Shown in pieces: positions 43,090 through 60,807 of a stretch of DNA of 64,000 nucleotides; the stretch's first letter is position 1; the number at the start of each line of letters is the position of its first letter. The notes beneath the pieces are model-generated. The model worked only from the letters and a program-made list of their open reading frames with translations. It did not search any database and was not told where the DNA came from. Made by a program: the position numbers and the translations under genes. This DNA comes from Mucilaginibacter aquatilis (GTDB lineage Bacteria > Bacteroidota > Bacteroidia > Sphingobacteriales > Sphingobacteriaceae). Location: contig NZ_WQLA01000005.1 in the NCBI RefSeq assembly GCF_009755275.1, forward strand, positions 1 through 64,000, given 5' to 3'.

Positions 43090-43209
43090 TTTTATCCTCA
43101 TATGTCATTTTGAACGATAGAGAGAAATCTTGTTCATCATGCGAAGTTAGAATGAGCAGAATAGCTTGTCCTTCCATTTTTATCCTACTTGTCATTTCGA
43201 ACGATAGAG
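43090..43209. repeat. Tandem pair of GTCATTTCGAACGATAGAG-type repeats
   Basis: Two copies of TTTTTATCCT followed by a TGTCATTTTGAACGATAGAG-type sequence lie at 43090-43130 and 43177-43209. An inverted relative (TTTCTCTCTATGGTTCGAAA) is at 44068-44094. Upstream, 43037-43064 resembles the end of the 37.8-kb MITE-like element. Otherwise the interval 42876-43393 has no gene. Confidence 0.6.
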
Positions 43210-43255
43210 TTAATTATGCAAAGTAGGTAGCGTGTAATATACCCACCATGCAATG

Positions 43256-43277
43256 ATGCCAAACTTATTTCAGCACC
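43256..43277 (+). repeat. Short dispersed repeat (AACTTATTTCAGCACC)
   Basis: ATGCCAAACTTATTTCAGCA plus CC, 20 of 22 bases identical to the copy at 43954-43975. Confidence 0.55.
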
Positions 43278-43393
43278 TTTATCCAGGGCGTGGCGCCGGC
43301 CAGGTATTTTGTTAAAAATTAACAAATAGTGCCCCCTGCTTAGCAATATGCCGAAATGTAATTTATAAATTAGCGCTACACAATAACCTTATC

Positions 43394-43876
43394 ATGAACC
43401 AACCTACCTACGGGCAAACCTTAACACCAGTCAATAACATTACCCGCAGGCGTAAATTGCTGCCTTGGTGGGTAATTGGCTTCACCTGGGTGTTTTTGCT
43501 GTTTGGAGTTACTGCGCCTGTTACGCTTATTTTGGGCGTGTTAGGTTATACGTTCCAGCTATCGGCATTGGGCCTGGCAACAAACGAGCCGCTAAGCATT
43601 ACCGGCTTTGCTGTTATGCTTATACTTGCGTTTAAAGGCTGGGTAGCCTACGGTTTATGGACCGAAAAGGAATGGGCCGTACGATGGGCAAAACTCGATG
43701 CCATTTTAAGTGTGGTTATTTGCGTAGCCACCACGCTAACCTCTCTGCTAACACCCGGAAACCTGAACCTCAGGCTCGAGTTTATCCTCATTATTCCGTA
43801 CTATTTTAAAATAAACAACATTCAATACGATTGGGAAAACTTTGAACTGGAAAATAAAATACTGATTGAAGAATAA
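43394..43876 (+). CDS. Hypothetical inner membrane protein
   Basis: A 160-aa protein with about three to four hydrophobic segments: residues 23-50 (WWVIGFTWVFLLFGVTAPV), 65-90 and 105-125. The N-terminus is cytoplasmic-like and basic (ITRRRKLLPW) and the C-terminus acidic. I do not recognise a family. It stands alone between repeat-rich DNA. Confidence 0.6.
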   Translation: MNQPTYGQTLTPVNNITRRRKLLPWWVIGFTWVFLLFGVTAPVTLILGVLGYTFQLSALGLATNEPLSITGFAVMLILAFKGWVAYGLWTEKEWAVRWAKLDAILSVVICVATTLTSLLTPGNLNLRLEFILIIPYYFKINNIQYDWENFELENKILIEE

Positions 43877-43953
43877 ACTGATTGGTTTGCTCATGTTATA
43901 GCTTGCCGAAGTTTGCAAGACAGGCACAACTAAAAACTACCATCTACCGAGCT

Positions 43954-43975
43954 ATGCCGAACTTGTTTCAGCACC
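43954..43975 (+). repeat. Short dispersed repeat (GAACTTGTTTCAGCACC)
   Basis: ATGCCGAACTTGTTTCAGCA plus CC. It is followed at 44013-44094 by a hairpin element (see the next entry). Confidence 0.55.
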
Positions 43976-44094: not shown

Positions 44095-44285
44095 GCAAGC
44101 AATAGTAGCTCATAACTCCATCAACAATTCACCAAAAGATAATTTGGGCGTTTCCCTCCGGGTCGGGCTATTCGCTGCAAGTCCTCGTTTCGCAATGCTA
44201 CACTGTGGGCTTTCCGCTACTATCCCTAACGCAAACTTCGTCCTAAACCTAATTGAACAGGAATAATGTAGCATTGGATACATAA

Positions 44286-45440
44286 TTAAAGAGAGTTAAA
44301 ATGATTCTGATAAACCATTGATTTTAATTGCTCAAACTGCCCTAACAATAGCTTTTTAATCTCGTCTCTTTGTGTTAATGTTAAATATCCATCAGTTAGT
44401 TCAATAGCAGATGCAAAATTAATTTCGAGCGGAGCCTTATGAGATCTGTCTTTCTGGTATTCATGAAAATTAAAATCCATTTTTACTTTTCCACTTACAT
44501 TTTTCTCCACTAATCTGAATTTGAATGTAGCTTGCATTCGCCAAACAATTAGGTTAGGATAATATTTCTCTTCATCAAGAAAAAAAGTAGTTTCTACCCG
44601 ATTCCCCCGGAATATTAATTCCTCTTTATTATCCATCCACTTTAACTCTTCTGGAAGAGGCATGCTTGTCTCTGGCCGAAATTCAAAAGAAACAACATTT
44701 TCCCCTTCAAATTTTAATGTTTTTGCCTCAGTAGAATTAAAAAGTTTCAAAAAAAACACAATCCGGCCTGTGTTATCAAAGTCATCAAATCTAATACGAT
44801 GCTCTTGTTCCTGCTCATTAATTAGCTTAAGCTCTTTACATCGCTTTTCGAAGAAGGAAACCGACTTATTAACGACGGCTTTTGTTTCATTAGAGGTAAA
44901 AAATCTTTGAAAATTTATTTGATTATCTACGTGCATCAAACTAACGATAGCTTTGAATTGAGACTTATGGTTCACCCAAGACTTATTATAATTACTCCGT
45001 TCTATTGTTATCTCTACTTCTATTTCCTTGTCCTTTACAACAATCTTAGCTTGAGGTCTTCCAACTATTTTATAGTTGTCTCTTAGCAATGCATTTTTGG
45101 GAGTAATTTGTTGAACTAAGTTGGGTAAAAATTCTTTATGAACAAATTCTGTTAAATTTTTAAAGTCGCTATTTAAGTTAATCTTACCAGAACCAGCACT
45201 CTTTAAATTATCTTCTTTAATTGTTTGCCTCTCAACCAATACATCAAACTCGGGAGGAGATAGTAACAAACATGACAAAATAGAAACTGTTTTTTCCTTT
45301 TGTGTCCCAGGAGTAAAAATTCCTCTTTGTCTTAATATAGCTTTTACATCTGCTTCTGAAATATAAGATTGATTAGCAAGATCTCTGATCATTTCTCCGC
45401 TCGGTATAAAAGAATGAGGGTTGACTTTAGTATTGGCCAT
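44286..45440 (-). CDS. GapS4b-like protein (second gene of a putative GAPS4-type defence pair)
   Basis: A 384-aa soluble protein. The opening (HSFIPSGEMIRDLANQSYIS, then EADVKAILRQRGIFTPG) and the SCLLLSPPEFDVLVERQTIKED stretch recall GapS4b of the GAPS4 anti-phage system, described in gamma-mobile-trio elements; this is from memory, without alignment. The rest is predicted beta-rich with no catalytic motif I can name. Its ATG overlaps the upstream stop by one base (TAATG), so translation is coupled to the broken partner gene. The locus is clearly more AT-rich than its surroundings, as expected for transferred DNA. Confidence 0.5.
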   Translation of the reverse strand: MANTKVNPHSFIPSGEMIRDLANQSYISEADVKAILRQRGIFTPGTQKEKTVSILSCLLLSPPEFDVLVERQTIKEDNLKSAGSGKINLNSDFKNLTEFVHKEFLPNLVQQITPKNALLRDNYKIVGRPQAKIVVKDKEIEVEITIERSNYNKSWVNHKSQFKAIVSLMHVDNQINFQRFFTSNETKAVVNKSVSFFEKRCKELKLINEQEQEHRIRFDDFDNTGRIVFFLKLFNSTEAKTLKFEGENVVSFEFRPETSMPLPEELKWMDNKEELIFRGNRVETTFFLDEEKYYPNLIVWRMQATFKFRLVEKNVSGKVKMDFNFHEYQKDRSHKAPLEINFASAIELTDGYLTLTQRDEIKKLLLGQFEQLKSMVYQNHFNSL

Positions 45441-46357
45441 TACTGTATAAGTTTATCATTGTAAGAAAGCACTTTAATTTTTCTTGCTAAATTGCTATCA
45501 CGAAAGTATTCTGTAACCTTTCGAACACTGTTTTCATTGCCATTAATTACAAAATCGGGAAACAAAATATCAATAGCCCCAGCGAATGCTCCTGAAAGTT
45601 TATTAGCCAAGCCGATAAGTTTTTTTAGGTCTTCTTCGTTATAGGCATCTATTGCATATAGTACAATGTTTTCAGATTCTGAGTTAGAATATTTTATGGG
45701 AATTATACTCGAATTGATATACTCTACCGGTAAAATAAATCCACTTTTAGTTTTAATATCTTCTCTATAATTTAATCCAGTTTCAATATAAAGAAATTCC
45801 CAGCCTTTATAATTCTGATCTGCATGATTCAAGATTTTCCAAATAAATTCAGCCTTTCTCAAATCAACCAAATATCCTGCTTCAAATTGGAAATCTTCTA
45901 TCCCTTCAACGTTTGCAGTAGCGGTCTCTTTTAAAAGATCTCTCGACTCTTCGGAAGCCTCATTAGAAAACTATAAAAGAACACCGATTATGCTTTCTGA
46001 CTCAAAAGAATCTTGCATAAACTGTTCACCGATTCCTATCTTCTCGTTTGAACGATTGTAACAGCTACAAATATCCGATAACTCTTTTAGATGGGATTTC
46101 AACTTAGAATTTGGGTATTTTGTATAATCACTTGTTGCCTTTATTGAAACTACAGCATTTACCAATCGCTGCTGTATCAATGGACAAGCATATAATTTTA
46201 GATAGTCAATTCCATGTGTCTCTCTATTTGGATGTTTTAAGGAATCATTACAAGGAATAGATAAGCCTCTTTGGCCATTTATCCATCCAATTCGCTCGAG
46301 AAAGCGATAACCAGCCTCTTCTCCTAACTCTCCGGTTCTTTTAGAAATTTCGCCCAT
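45440..46357 (-). pseudogene. GapS4a-like nuclease-fold gene split by an in-frame TAG
   Basis: Two open segments, 45971-46357 (128 codons) and 45440-45970, are in the same frame and separated only by TAG at 45971-45973. Without it a 305-codon gene is intact. The N-terminal part opens SKRTGELGEEAGYRFLERIG and has THGIDYLKL followed by VVSIK, a PD-(D/E)xK-like Asp51...Ser71-x-Lys73 arrangement as in GapS4a. The second part (from TTG 45871) continues KGWEFLYIETGLNY. A nonsense mutation, a readthrough codon or an assembly error are possible; loss of function is the simplest view. Confidence 0.6.
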
Positions 46358-46460
46358 TATAGGTTTTAGGTTATATTAGCCTCTAAGGTAATTTTTTGAA
46401 TTAAAACTTAGAGTATTTATTGAATTTTCCCTATACACGCACGTCGCGTGTGCTACAAAT

Positions 46461-46586
46461 TCAAACCTTACCCAACACAACCACCACCTGCCCCTGAAAC
46501 AACCTCACCGCCTCAACCACATCATCGCTCAATTGCCCCACCATCAACCCAATATTTGAGCCGCTAACATCTACTGAGGAACATAT
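46461..46586 (-). pseudogene. Possible C-terminal gene remnant
   Basis: A 41-codon open stretch on the minus strand ends at TGA (46461-46463) and reads SNIGLMVGQLSDDVVEAVRL in its middle, with a VVVVLGKV end. It is blocked upstream by TGA at 46587. The GC-rich, valine-rich coding style contrasts with the AT-rich defence locus, suggesting the tail of an older gene cut off by rearrangement. I do not recognise the family. The remaining part of 46358-46778 holds nothing else that I can see. Confidence 0.3.
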
Positions 46587-49442: not shown

Positions 49443-50309
49443 TTGTTAGTAAAAACCTTTGGCAGCGCGGTTTACGGTATTGAAGCTACCACCATTACCG
49501 TAGAAGTAAATATTGCTGCCGGTACCAAATATTTTATTGTAGGCCTGCCCGATGTAGCCATTAAAGAGAGCTATTTCCGGATTGAATCGGCCCTGAAGAA
49601 CTGTAACTATAAAATGCCCCGCCAGCAGGTGGTGGTAAATATGGCCCCTGCGGATATTCGTAAAGAAGGTTCGGCGTATGACCTTACCATTGCCACAGGC
49701 ATCCTGGCGGCCAGCGGCCAAATGGTAGCCGATGATCTGGACAAGTACCTCATCATGGGCGAACTATCATTAGACGGCGGCCTGCATCCCATTAAAGGTG
49801 CCCTACCCATTGCCATACAGGCCCGCAAAGAAGGCTTCAAAGGTTTCATTCTACCCAAGCAAAACGCCCGCGAAGCAGCCATAGTGAATGATTTGGAAGT
49901 TTATGGTGTTGAGTCGATAACGGAAGTATTCAACTTTTTTAATGGTGATACCAAGCTCGAAAGAACACTTGTAAACACTCGCGAAGAGTTTTATGACAGC
50001 CTGTGCAACTATGCCAGTGATTTTAGCGAGGTAAAAGGGCAGGAAAACATTAAACGCGCGCTGGAAATTGCAGCAGCAGGCGGACACAATGTCATTTTGA
50101 TAGGTCCGCCGGGTGCGGGTAAAACCATGCTGGCCAAGCGAATGCCTTCTATAATGCCGCCGCTAAGCTTGCACGAATCGCTCGAGACGACTAAAATACA
50201 TTCTGTAGCGGGCAAAATGGCTGCTGCCGATGCGCTGGTTACTACGCGTCCGTTCCGTTCGCCGCACCATACTATTAGTGAGGAGATACTGGCAAACGCG
50301 GGGGTGTAA
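49443..50309 (+). pseudogene. comM: comM/yifB 5' part, interrupted by the integrative element
   Basis: The Mg-chelatase-like AAA+ helicase ComM aids branch migration during natural transformation. This fragment (TTG start) has the N-terminal domain MLVKTFGSAVYGIEATT, the Lon-like fold, and the Walker A motif GPPGAGKT near residue 220. The native sequence continues to RPFRSPHHTIS (codon 279, ending at 50279). The next nine codons (EEILANAGV, stop) come from the inserted element. The missing part resumes at 60106; 279 + 233 residues rebuild a 512-aa protein of normal length. Confidence 0.92.
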
Positions 50310-55685: not shown

Positions 55686-56543
55686 ATGCGAGATAACAAT
55701 GCAGGTAAAGCTATTCCAATCAATGAGCTTCAGGTGCCAGAGGTTCTCTATAAGTACAGAGAATTTAAAAATGAATATCATGTAAAATCGATAACTAAAT
55801 GTCAAGTTTACCTCCCCTCGGCGAATGAGTTTAATGACCCATTCGATTCAAAAATTCCTTTTAGATACAATCCGGAGGAGCTTACTAAAGAAAATATTTA
55901 TCTTAAAAGCTTGGAGGTTGCAAAAAATGCGCAGGCAGGCTTAGAGGAGGAGGAATATCAGCAGATGGCTTATCGTGCGGAAAGTGAAGGTCTCCTTTTT
56001 GATTCGTATCATTTAGATGAATTTGATAAAAACACTTTCAATCGACTTTGTAAAGACTATGCTGTTTTTTGTTTGACTCCTGATTGTCTAAACCTGTTAA
56101 TGTGGTCATATTATGCCGATTCACACAGAGGCTTTAGTATCGGTTATGATGCTAAGTTTTTGGTTAAATGTGGCTACTTTTCAATTGGTGGCAAAATAAT
56201 GTACACTGACCAATTTCCTAAGATGCCATTATTTTTATCAGAAAATGACTACCCCATGCTGAATATTTTATTCACAAAATGGAATAAGTGGGAACATGAA
56301 AATGAGTACAGATTAATACATCGATTAGGCACTGGAAAAATAAAAGATTTGCCAAGTGAAGCAATTAAAGAAATTGTATTAGGCTGCCAAATAAGCAATG
56401 AGAAAAAAATTGAATATGTTATGATGATTAAGGAAGTATTACCTAAAGTTGATATATACGAGATTAAAATGAGAAAGGATGGCTTCGGATTAACAAAGGA
56501 ACCAATAGTTAATCAACGGTTACTGCTATTTGATAAAGTTTAA
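55686..56543 (+). CDS. DUF2971 domain protein
   Basis: A 285-aa protein with the features of DUF2971: an opening VLYKYREFKNE, ANEFNDPFDSKIPF near residue 48, then LCKDYAVFCLTPDCLNLLMW and YYADSHRGFSIGYD. The family is found in defence islands and mobile elements; its activity is not established. Its stop lies 8 bp from the convergent resolvase gene. Confidence 0.75.
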   Translation: MRDNNAGKAIPINELQVPEVLYKYREFKNEYHVKSITKCQVYLPSANEFNDPFDSKIPFRYNPEELTKENIYLKSLEVAKNAQAGLEEEEYQQMAYRAESEGLLFDSYHLDEFDKNTFNRLCKDYAVFCLTPDCLNLLMWSYYADSHRGFSIGYDAKFLVKCGYFSIGGKIMYTDQFPKMPLFLSENDYPMLNILFTKWNKWEHENEYRLIHRLGTGKIKDLPSEAIKEIVLGCQISNEKKIEYVMMIKEVLPKVDIYEIKMRKDGFGLTKEPIVNQRLLLFDKV

Positions 56544-58078: not shown

Positions 58079-58298
58079 AGACACAAATCCTATTAATAGT
58101 ATATATTTTAATGGGGGAAACATTTTAAACACACTCATTTCAATAAGAGGGAAGAGGATTGACTTCTTTAAATTGTACGAGAAAGTAAAGTCATCTAATG
58201 AGATTTCCTTACAAACCTATATCTTAACCTTGGATTGGCTTTATCTGTTAGGGTCGATTAAGCTTGATGATAACGGAAAAATAGTTAAATGTTTTTAA
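58065..58298 (+). CDS. ABC-3C system middle component (MC6-like)
   Basis: The frame is open from 58020, but ATG 58065 (MLLPKDTNPINSIYFNGGN) is the family-like start and overlaps the upstream gene by 14 bp. The 77-aa protein continues FFKLYEKVKSSNEISLQTYI, then LTLDWLYLLGSIKLDDNGK, as in the small middle component of ABC-3C systems, a winged-helix-like adaptor between ATPase and effector. Its stop overlaps the ATPase start by 10 bp. Confidence 0.65.
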   Translation: MLLPKDTNPINSIYFNGGNILNTLISIRGKRIDFFKLYEKVKSSNEISLQTYILTLDWLYLLGSIKLDDNGKIVKCF

Positions 58299-59983
58299 AG
58301 TCGTTAACAATTCAGAATGAATCCGTCACTGTTCGTGACATTAGATTCCATAAAGGTTTAAATTTAATAATTGATGAAACCGATACAGATACTCCACAAA
58401 GTTCTGGCAATAATGTAGGTAAAACAACAGTATTGAAACTCATAGATTTTTGTCTGGGTGGTAATGGGGTCAATGTTTACAAAAAAGACATGGAGTTTAA
58501 AGATAAATCCTATGTCGACGTTGAAAATTTTTTAAAGCATAATAACATAATAATAACTCTTGTTCTAAAGCAAGATTTAGATGTTGAAGGAAGTCCTGAA
58601 ATTGTAATAAGGAAAAACTTTTTAAATCGCAGTCAAAAAATTCAAGAAATTAATGGTGAATATTTTAATGATAAAGCCTTTGATATTAGGTTAAAGCAGT
58701 TAATTTTTCATTCTACAGGGCACAAGCCTACTTTTCGGCAAATTATTGCCAAAAATATAAGATATGAGAAGAATCGGTTAGACAACACATTAAAGGTACT
58801 CTTTCACACAACTACGTTTGAAGAATATGAAGCCTTGTATTTTTTTTGGTTAGGTATTGATACAGATACCGCAAGTAAAAAACAAAAGCTACACTTACAA
58901 AAATCCACAGAGGAGACTATAATAAAACGTTTAAGACGGGATACATCACTTTCTGAAATTAAGCAAGCCCTATCTGTTATTGATAGAGATATTGAAGACT
59001 TAGATAAGCTGAAAAAACGGTTTAATATTAATGATGATTATGAAGTTGATTTAGATAAGTTAAATATAGCTAAGTCAAATATCAACAGGTTATCAAGTCA
59101 AATAAGCAGATTAAATCTTCGTAAGAACATAATTCTTGAAGCCAAGTCTGAATTGGAAAAGGAATACGCAAACATTGACATTAATCAGTTAAAAGAAATT
59201 TATAATTCGGCTTCCGGGTTTTTACCGGAGATGCACAAAAAGTTTGAAGAGATGCTTTCATTTCACAATCAAATGCTGAAAGAAAAAATCAAATTTGTTA
59301 GCACCGAAATTCCATCACTTGAATTAGAGATTGAAAACTCCAATTCATTAATGCAAAGCGAAATAAAAAATGAAACTTTTTTAGCTGACAAATTGAACAA
59401 GTCTAACGCCTTAAAAGAGTTAGAAACAATAATAGGTCAACTAAACAAAAAATACGAGCAAAAGGGCAAATATGAAGAACAACTTCGACAATGGTCTGCT
59501 TCTACTGAAAAATTAGAATCCATTGAAAAGGAGCTAAAAGAGATTAATGACGGGATAACATCTCAGGATAAAGATTTAGAGAATAAAATTGAAGGCTTTA
59601 ACAAATTCTTCTCAAAAATATCACAAAAGTTATACGGCGAGCAATTCATTTTAAGTCATGATAAGACGGAAAGAGCGTATGTTTTAAAGATTGGAGCTAT
59701 TGGCGGTGTGGGTACTGGTAAGAAGAAAGGGCAAATCGCAGCATTCGATATTGCTTATGTTCAGTTTTGTGACGAAAATGATATACCATGCTTACATTTT
59801 ATATTACACGACCAAATTGAAACTATACATGATAATCAATTATCATTAATTTCAAACGTTGTGAATAATGTTAATGTTCAATTTGTAGTTCCTGTTTTAA
59901 GAGATAAGCTTCCTCCTGAAATGAACATCGAAACATTTAAAATTATCGCATTATCTCAGGAGGAGAAGTTATTTAAAGTTTAA
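58289..59983 (+). CDS. ABC-3C system ATPase (DUF2326-type, SMC/Rad50-like)
   Basis: A 564-aa ABC ATPase. Walker A is SSGNNVGKTT (GK at 44-45), and LIDFCLGG follows. A long coiled coil fills about residues 200-440. The C-terminal half-site is DUF2326-like: AIGGVGTGKKKGQIAAFDIA, YVQFCDENDIPCLHFILHD and VVPVLRDKLPPE. Such ATPases sense a DNA or phage signal in ABC-3C systems. Four genes (57309-59983) overlap in series, a single transcription unit. Confidence 0.8.
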   Translation: MFLKSLTIQNESVTVRDIRFHKGLNLIIDETDTDTPQSSGNNVGKTTVLKLIDFCLGGNGVNVYKKDMEFKDKSYVDVENFLKHNNIIITLVLKQDLDVEGSPEIVIRKNFLNRSQKIQEINGEYFNDKAFDIRLKQLIFHSTGHKPTFRQIIAKNIRYEKNRLDNTLKVLFHTTTFEEYEALYFFWLGIDTDTASKKQKLHLQKSTEETIIKRLRRDTSLSEIKQALSVIDRDIEDLDKLKKRFNINDDYEVDLDKLNIAKSNINRLSSQISRLNLRKNIILEAKSELEKEYANIDINQLKEIYNSASGFLPEMHKKFEEMLSFHNQMLKEKIKFVSTEIPSLELEIENSNSLMQSEIKNETFLADKLNKSNALKELETIIGQLNKKYEQKGKYEEQLRQWSASTEKLESIEKELKEINDGITSQDKDLENKIEGFNKFFSKISQKLYGEQFILSHDKTERAYVLKIGAIGGVGTGKKKGQIAAFDIAYVQFCDENDIPCLHFILHDQIETIHDNQLSLISNVVNNVNVQFVVPVLRDKLPPEMNIETFKIIALSQEEKLFKV

Positions 59984-60078: not shown

Positions 60079-60807
60079 ATGCCCCCCATGTTTGATAGGG
60101 TAAGCGATGTGGCCTTGGTTGGCGGGGGCGGGCATCCGCAACCCGGCGAAATATCGCTTGCGCATAATGGTGTGCTGTTTTTAGATGAGTTGCCGGAGTT
60201 TAAACGCACGGTGCTAGAGGTGATGCGCCAGCCGTTAGAAGAACGCCGTGTAACCATATCCCGCGCAAAATTTACGGTTGATTACCCGGCCAGCTTTATG
60301 TTGGTTGCCAGTATGAATCCTTGCCCCTGCGGTTACTACAACCATCCCGAAAAGGAATGCGTATGCCCGCCGGGAGTGGTTCAAAAATACCTGAGCAAAG
60401 TATCAGGTCCGCTGTTAGATCGTATTGATTTGCATGTGGAGGTTACTCCTGTAAACTTTAATGAATTAGCGTCTGACAGGCTCGCCGAAAAAAGCGAAAT
60501 CATTCGCGAGCGGGTAATTAAAGCACGCGATATACAGATTGAGCGCTTTGGTAACAAACCCGATTTGCATTGCAATGCTCAAATGACACCACAAATGGTA
60601 CGCGACATATGCAAGGTAAATGAGGCGGGGCAAAACCTGCTTAAAAAGGCCATGGAAAAGCTAGGCCTATCGGCCCGTGCCTACGACCGTATACTTAAAG
60701 TTGCCCGTACCATTGCCGATTTAGCCGGAAGCGAAAACATTAATATGGAACACCTGGCCGAGGCCATTCACTTCCGTAGTCTTGACCGCGAAGGTTGGGC
60801 CGGATAA
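60079..60807 (+). pseudogene. comM: comM/yifB 3' part
   Basis: The native sequence starts with codon GAT at 60106 ([20 protein letters not shown]), preceded by 9 element-derived codons from an ATG at 60079. The fragment keeps Walker B (LFLDELPEF), the sensor [16 protein letters not shown] zinc-like motif and the C-terminal helical lid ([20 protein letters not shown]), 233 native residues. With Walker A on the other fragment, neither half can form an active helicase alone. The element could restore the gene by precise excision. Confidence 0.92.
60090..60108. other. attR junction of the integrative element
   Basis: GTTTG (60090-60094) is followed by 11 bp, then GA (60106-60107), then native comM DNA (TGTGGCC). 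With attL this rebuilds attP as GTTTG-N11-GA-N11-CAAAC, exactly symmetric about the GA core. Confidence 0.75.

Follow-up and report, generated by a model that had tools for sequence, protein, structure and literature searches.

GAPS4 is a known two-gene anti-phage system, and profile matching confirms that the gene pair described here belongs to it. The pair was found in Mucilaginibacter aquatilis, a soil-type bacterium, on a 64,000-nucleotide stretch of contig NZ_WQLA01000005.1 that is referred to below as the window. The closest intact GAPS4 is that of M. terrigena (NZ_SEWG01000007.1, L016), with 68% identity in GapS4a and 70% in GapS4b, and our searches found no copy closer than this one. 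Its genes stand in the same order and meet at the same tight junction as those of the window. However, its gapS4a is uninterrupted, and the pair occupies a different locus, beside a methylmalonyl-CoA mutase-like gene (named from its sequence) and a toxin-antitoxin-like pair. A second point of reference lies between the same flanks in the closest relative at the locus, genome G032 (L038). This is PDC-M41A/B, which is likewise a two-gene candidate defence cassette but is made up of proteins unrelated to GAPS4, and is the alternative occupant of the site.

The interruption of gapS4a also invites comparison with a survey that reports in-frame stops to be common in bacterial genes, many of these genes having dN/dS below 1, and that proposes short-term down-regulation as their role (PMC7918605, 2021). 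The gene of the window resembles those cases in having one stop, most likely young, in an otherwise maintained gene. The surveyed cases had to share their stop between species, whereas the stop of the window occurs in one genome only.

Identification of the Pair as GAPS4

The pair comprises the following features:

45974..46357, minus strand: first segment of gapS4a, codons 1-128; matches NF047933 and carries the G-x-D...S-x-K nuclease-like motif
45971..45973, minus strand: in-frame TAG, gapS4a codon 129; seen in the sequence and in the alignment of relatives
45443..45970, minus strand: second segment of gapS4a, codons 130-305; matches NF047933 and ends at its natural TAA (45440-45442)
44286..45440, minus strand: gapS4b, intact, 384 aa; matches NF047934, its start overlapping the gapS4a stop

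Translation of the gapS4a frame (46357-45440) yields 128 codons, the TAG, 176 codons and the TAA, which bears out the claim of an earlier note on this DNA that two segments in one frame are parted by TAG only. The same note had described the second gene as intact and coupled by TAATG, and this too holds: gapS4b is a 384-codon open reading frame (45440-44286) with the last A of the gapS4a TAA as the first base of its ATG. The two genes are adjacent and co-directional, with an equally tight junction in nine relatives.

When compared with the NCBIfam profile for GapS4a (NF047933), the first segment matches positions 1-132 (133.5 bits, E 9e-39) and the second matches positions 135-302 (151.8 bits, E 2.5e-44). 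Since the pieces cover successive parts of a single profile, the continuity of the frame goes beyond chance. Scanned through the TAG, gapS4a reaches 298.2 bits against a curated cut-off of 270 bits, and gapS4b scores 309.1 bits against NF047934, above its cut-off of 300 bits, so that both genes of what had been proposed as a GAPS4-like pair pass their respective profiles. Taken separately, neither piece of gapS4a reaches the cut-off of 270 bits, and the genome as written thus encodes no GapS4a above it. Forty-two tRNAs in the genome reach the Rfam cut-off; ARAGORN assigns anticodons to all but one of them, none being CUA, and the remaining tRNA aligns with a GCA anticodon. Because gapS4a has the TAG at codon 129 and no UAG-reading tRNA was found, the system is classed as a broken GAPS4 rather than a working one.

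GapS4a matches were present in 7 of 150 genomes of the genus, which is a patchy distribution. Neither PADLOC-DB 2.0.0 (2023) nor Pfam gave a GAPS4 match for the pair, and a sequence search of solved structures gave no match. The plasmid collection held just two distant GapS4a relatives (32% identity), and no relative was found in viral contigs, for the scanning of which the GapS4a profile is too diverse.

The family motif of GapS4a, G-x-D(51)...S(71)-x-K(73), is present in the first segment, and G49, D51, S71, and K73 are invariant in the family. The earlier note had placed a PD-(D/E)xK-like motif in this segment; the location stands, but the residue pattern does not, as the whole family has Ser in place of the Asp or Glu of PD-(D/E)xK. 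The nuclease-like motif is backed by no match to Pfam or to solved structures, and structure models built from two-sequence alignments (mean pLDDT 42.5 for GapS4a and 39.1) are too poor for judging the fold.

The Stop Codon Among Relatives

The TAG falls inside a conserved stretch of GapS4a, G-(V/I/L)-(L/I)-x-W. Of the ten full-length relatives, nine have TGG (Trp) as the codon aligned to it and one has TAT (Tyr). The sense codon for which the earlier note proposed to look is thus there in all ten, but Tyr, which it named, is not likely to be the ancestral residue. A stop conserved between related genes, the mark of a programmed readthrough gene, is accordingly absent among these ten. Three sampled searches, of the genus, the class, and the phylum, returned 15 distinct genomes with GapS4a matches, and an internal gapS4a stop was seen in one, that of the window, which is also the sole genome of its species compared.

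Residue changes unique to the window or to M. terrigena, polarised with the other relatives as outgroup to this pair, number 10 and 12, respectively, before the stop and 14 each after it, and these even counts indicate no decay past the stop. Relative to M. terrigena, pN/pS is ~0.26 in the part of gapS4a that precedes the stop, ~0.32 in the part that follows, and ~0.27 in gapS4b, although synonymous sites are saturated at this distance (pS ~0.77 even against this nearest GAPS4). No second lesion besides the TAG was found in gapS4a. The absence of decay fits a recent mutation and would fit functional readthrough equally, as rate alone cannot part the two.

The Locus and Its Surroundings

Two further features define the insertion:

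44233..46475, no strand assigned: GAPS4 cassette, not shared with G032 (blastn against L038)
44142..44240, no strand assigned: dispersed ~100-bp repeat, Flavo-1-RNA-like on the minus strand (44157-44235), abutting the left cassette edge

The flanks are ~84-92% identical in DNA to those of G032. In blastn comparison, homology ends at 44232 on the left and restarts at 46476 on the right. Between these flanks G032 has TcmP-like and Gp37/Gp68-like genes, whose match in PADLOC is PDC-M41A/B, a candidate defence pair. The site thus appears to exchange defence cassettes, and the GAPS4 stretch looks like an exchangeable one. The G+C content of the GAPS4 genes is 33-34%, compared with 41.6% for the window.

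A search of the same genome gave 33 matches to the 301-bp flank, and roughly half of these fall on the end that holds the 44142-44240 repeat. This repeat scores 34.2 bits against Flavo-1 (RF01705), under the gathering score of 42, and the RF01705 model finds only five matches in the genome, one of them above the cut-off.

Several other observations were made around the cassette. A stretch of ~800 bp (43150-43954) with a 160-aa open reading frame (43394-43876) is absent from G032, and is thus a second insertion at this spot, beside the GAPS4 cassette. About 80 bp upstream of gapS4a lies a perfect inverted repeat, ACACGC-GACGT-GCGTGT (46436-46450, 6-bp arms), the core of which occurs once in the genome and which is absent from the region read upstream of M. 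terrigena gapS4a. Further along the window, an island of ~9.8 kb (50.3-60.08 kb) interrupts a comM/yifB-like gene (Mg-chelatase type ATPase), the two parts of which lie at 49443-50309 and 60079-60807. The island carries large serine recombinases (CcrB-like) and matches to the PADLOC candidates PDC-S31 (55686-56543) and PDC-M68B (58289-59983). In G032 the comM/yifB-like gene is in one piece (L038 926-2464).

Origin of the Stop

The earlier note had left three options for the stop, namely recent loss, readthrough, and assembly error, and recent loss is the best of them, given that the stop is unique, that it sits at a conserved Trp position, that no decay follows it, and that no suppressor tRNA was found. 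We consider it probable, with good confidence, that a gapS4a-gapS4b operon was acquired horizontally at a cassette-exchanging locus and was recently inactivated by one nonsense mutation in gapS4a. Judged from the sequence, GAPS4 function has most likely been lost, and the loss is most likely recent. The proposed course of events would begin with horizontal gain of the operon at a site that swaps defence cassettes, followed by the single mutation. Ribosomes would then halt after residue 128 and release a fragment that keeps the nuclease-like motif but misses 176 residues, or 58% of the protein. As the gapS4b start lies inside the gapS4a stop, translation of gapS4b probably needs ribosomes coming from gapS4a, and through this coupling the early stop would probably also lower the amount of GapS4b.

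Both assembly error and readthrough are less likely than recent nonsense inactivation. That one substitution is the sole defect, in two genes that otherwise look maintained, is what would be expected if base calling or assembly had gone wrong and the living strain had an intact gapS4a. However, with 10 contigs, 99.98% completeness and 0.04% contamination the assembly is clean, and six conserved flanking genes, of 2,467 codons in all, contain no internal stop and can be aligned with G032 over their full length. Base substitutions are moreover the rarest type of error in assemblies of this kind. Taken together, the clean assembly and the stop-free flanking genes make an isolated substitution error unlikely, and we regard this explanation as improbable. 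Somewhat more doubtful still is the proposal that ribosomes pass the TAG often enough to be useful, the stop tuning down the amount of the nuclease subunit. Such readthrough would account for a frame that continues undamaged and for a rate of change that is not raised past the stop, and the many in-frame stops with dN/dS below 1 offer it a precedent. Yet those stops were found to be short-lived, mostly on the polymorphism scale (PMC7918605). All ten full-length relatives lack the stop, a tRNA that reads UAG is not among the 42 detected, and no readthrough signal was identified. TAG is also an ordinary terminator in the window, where it ends 6 of 29 long open reading frames and is thus not reassigned. 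We regard active readthrough of the gapS4a TAG as unsupported and improbable.

Two further proposals both appear very unlikely. The amber codon could act as a switch, leaky or reversible, that holds a defence nuclease, assumed to be costly, almost fully off, while in part of a population its activity returns when the stop is occasionally read through or reverts; we would give this little credence. Least probable of all is a working split GapS4a, formed by the 128-residue fragment alone or together with a fragment restarted after the stop. The motif does sit in the first segment, and in the second segment the final 143 codons are open from a TTG, but that segment has no in-frame ATG, the cut hits the conserved stretch that ends in Trp, and the sampled GapS4a matches include no other genome with a split gapS4a as a standing form.

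A second broken gapS4a was seen in the Bacteroidota genome G491 (L117, G491:C53, 6375-7214), where after residue ~147 the frame enters a transposase open reading frame that we take to be IS630-like, from its sequence and general knowledge. This break adjoins a scaffold gap, and a DNA methyltransferase-like gene lies upstream. As gapS4a is cut here as well, the gene has probably been lost at least twice, in the genome of the window and in G491.

Implications and Fused GAPS4-like ORFs

Recent inactivation of the pair would be a documented case of a defence system, itself described only recently, being lost in nature through a single nonsense change, at a place that in a close relative is taken by another candidate defence pair. 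A broken GAPS4 is an ordinary kind of event and reveals no new mechanism. It does call for caution, as a broken system can be listed as present by profile searches in which fragments are scored or stops are read across.

More novel than the broken pair of the window are GAPS4-like fusions in single open reading frames of ~880-895 aa, seen in two Bacteroidota genomes, G070 (L014/L008, G070:C1 ~861.3-863.9 kb) and G141 (L020/L007, G141:C3 ~173.6-176.3 kb). In these, an N-terminal domain of ~205 aa is joined to two regions, one resembling GapS4a (161 bits in G141) and the other GapS4b (130 bits). The G-x-D...S-x-K motif of GapS4a has apparently been lost from the fusions, and the N-terminal domain features a D...QxK nuclease-like motif (VDIRW...QIKSS, VDIKW...QVKSS). 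These open reading frames may represent a fused GAPS4 variant with its nuclease site relocated to a new domain.
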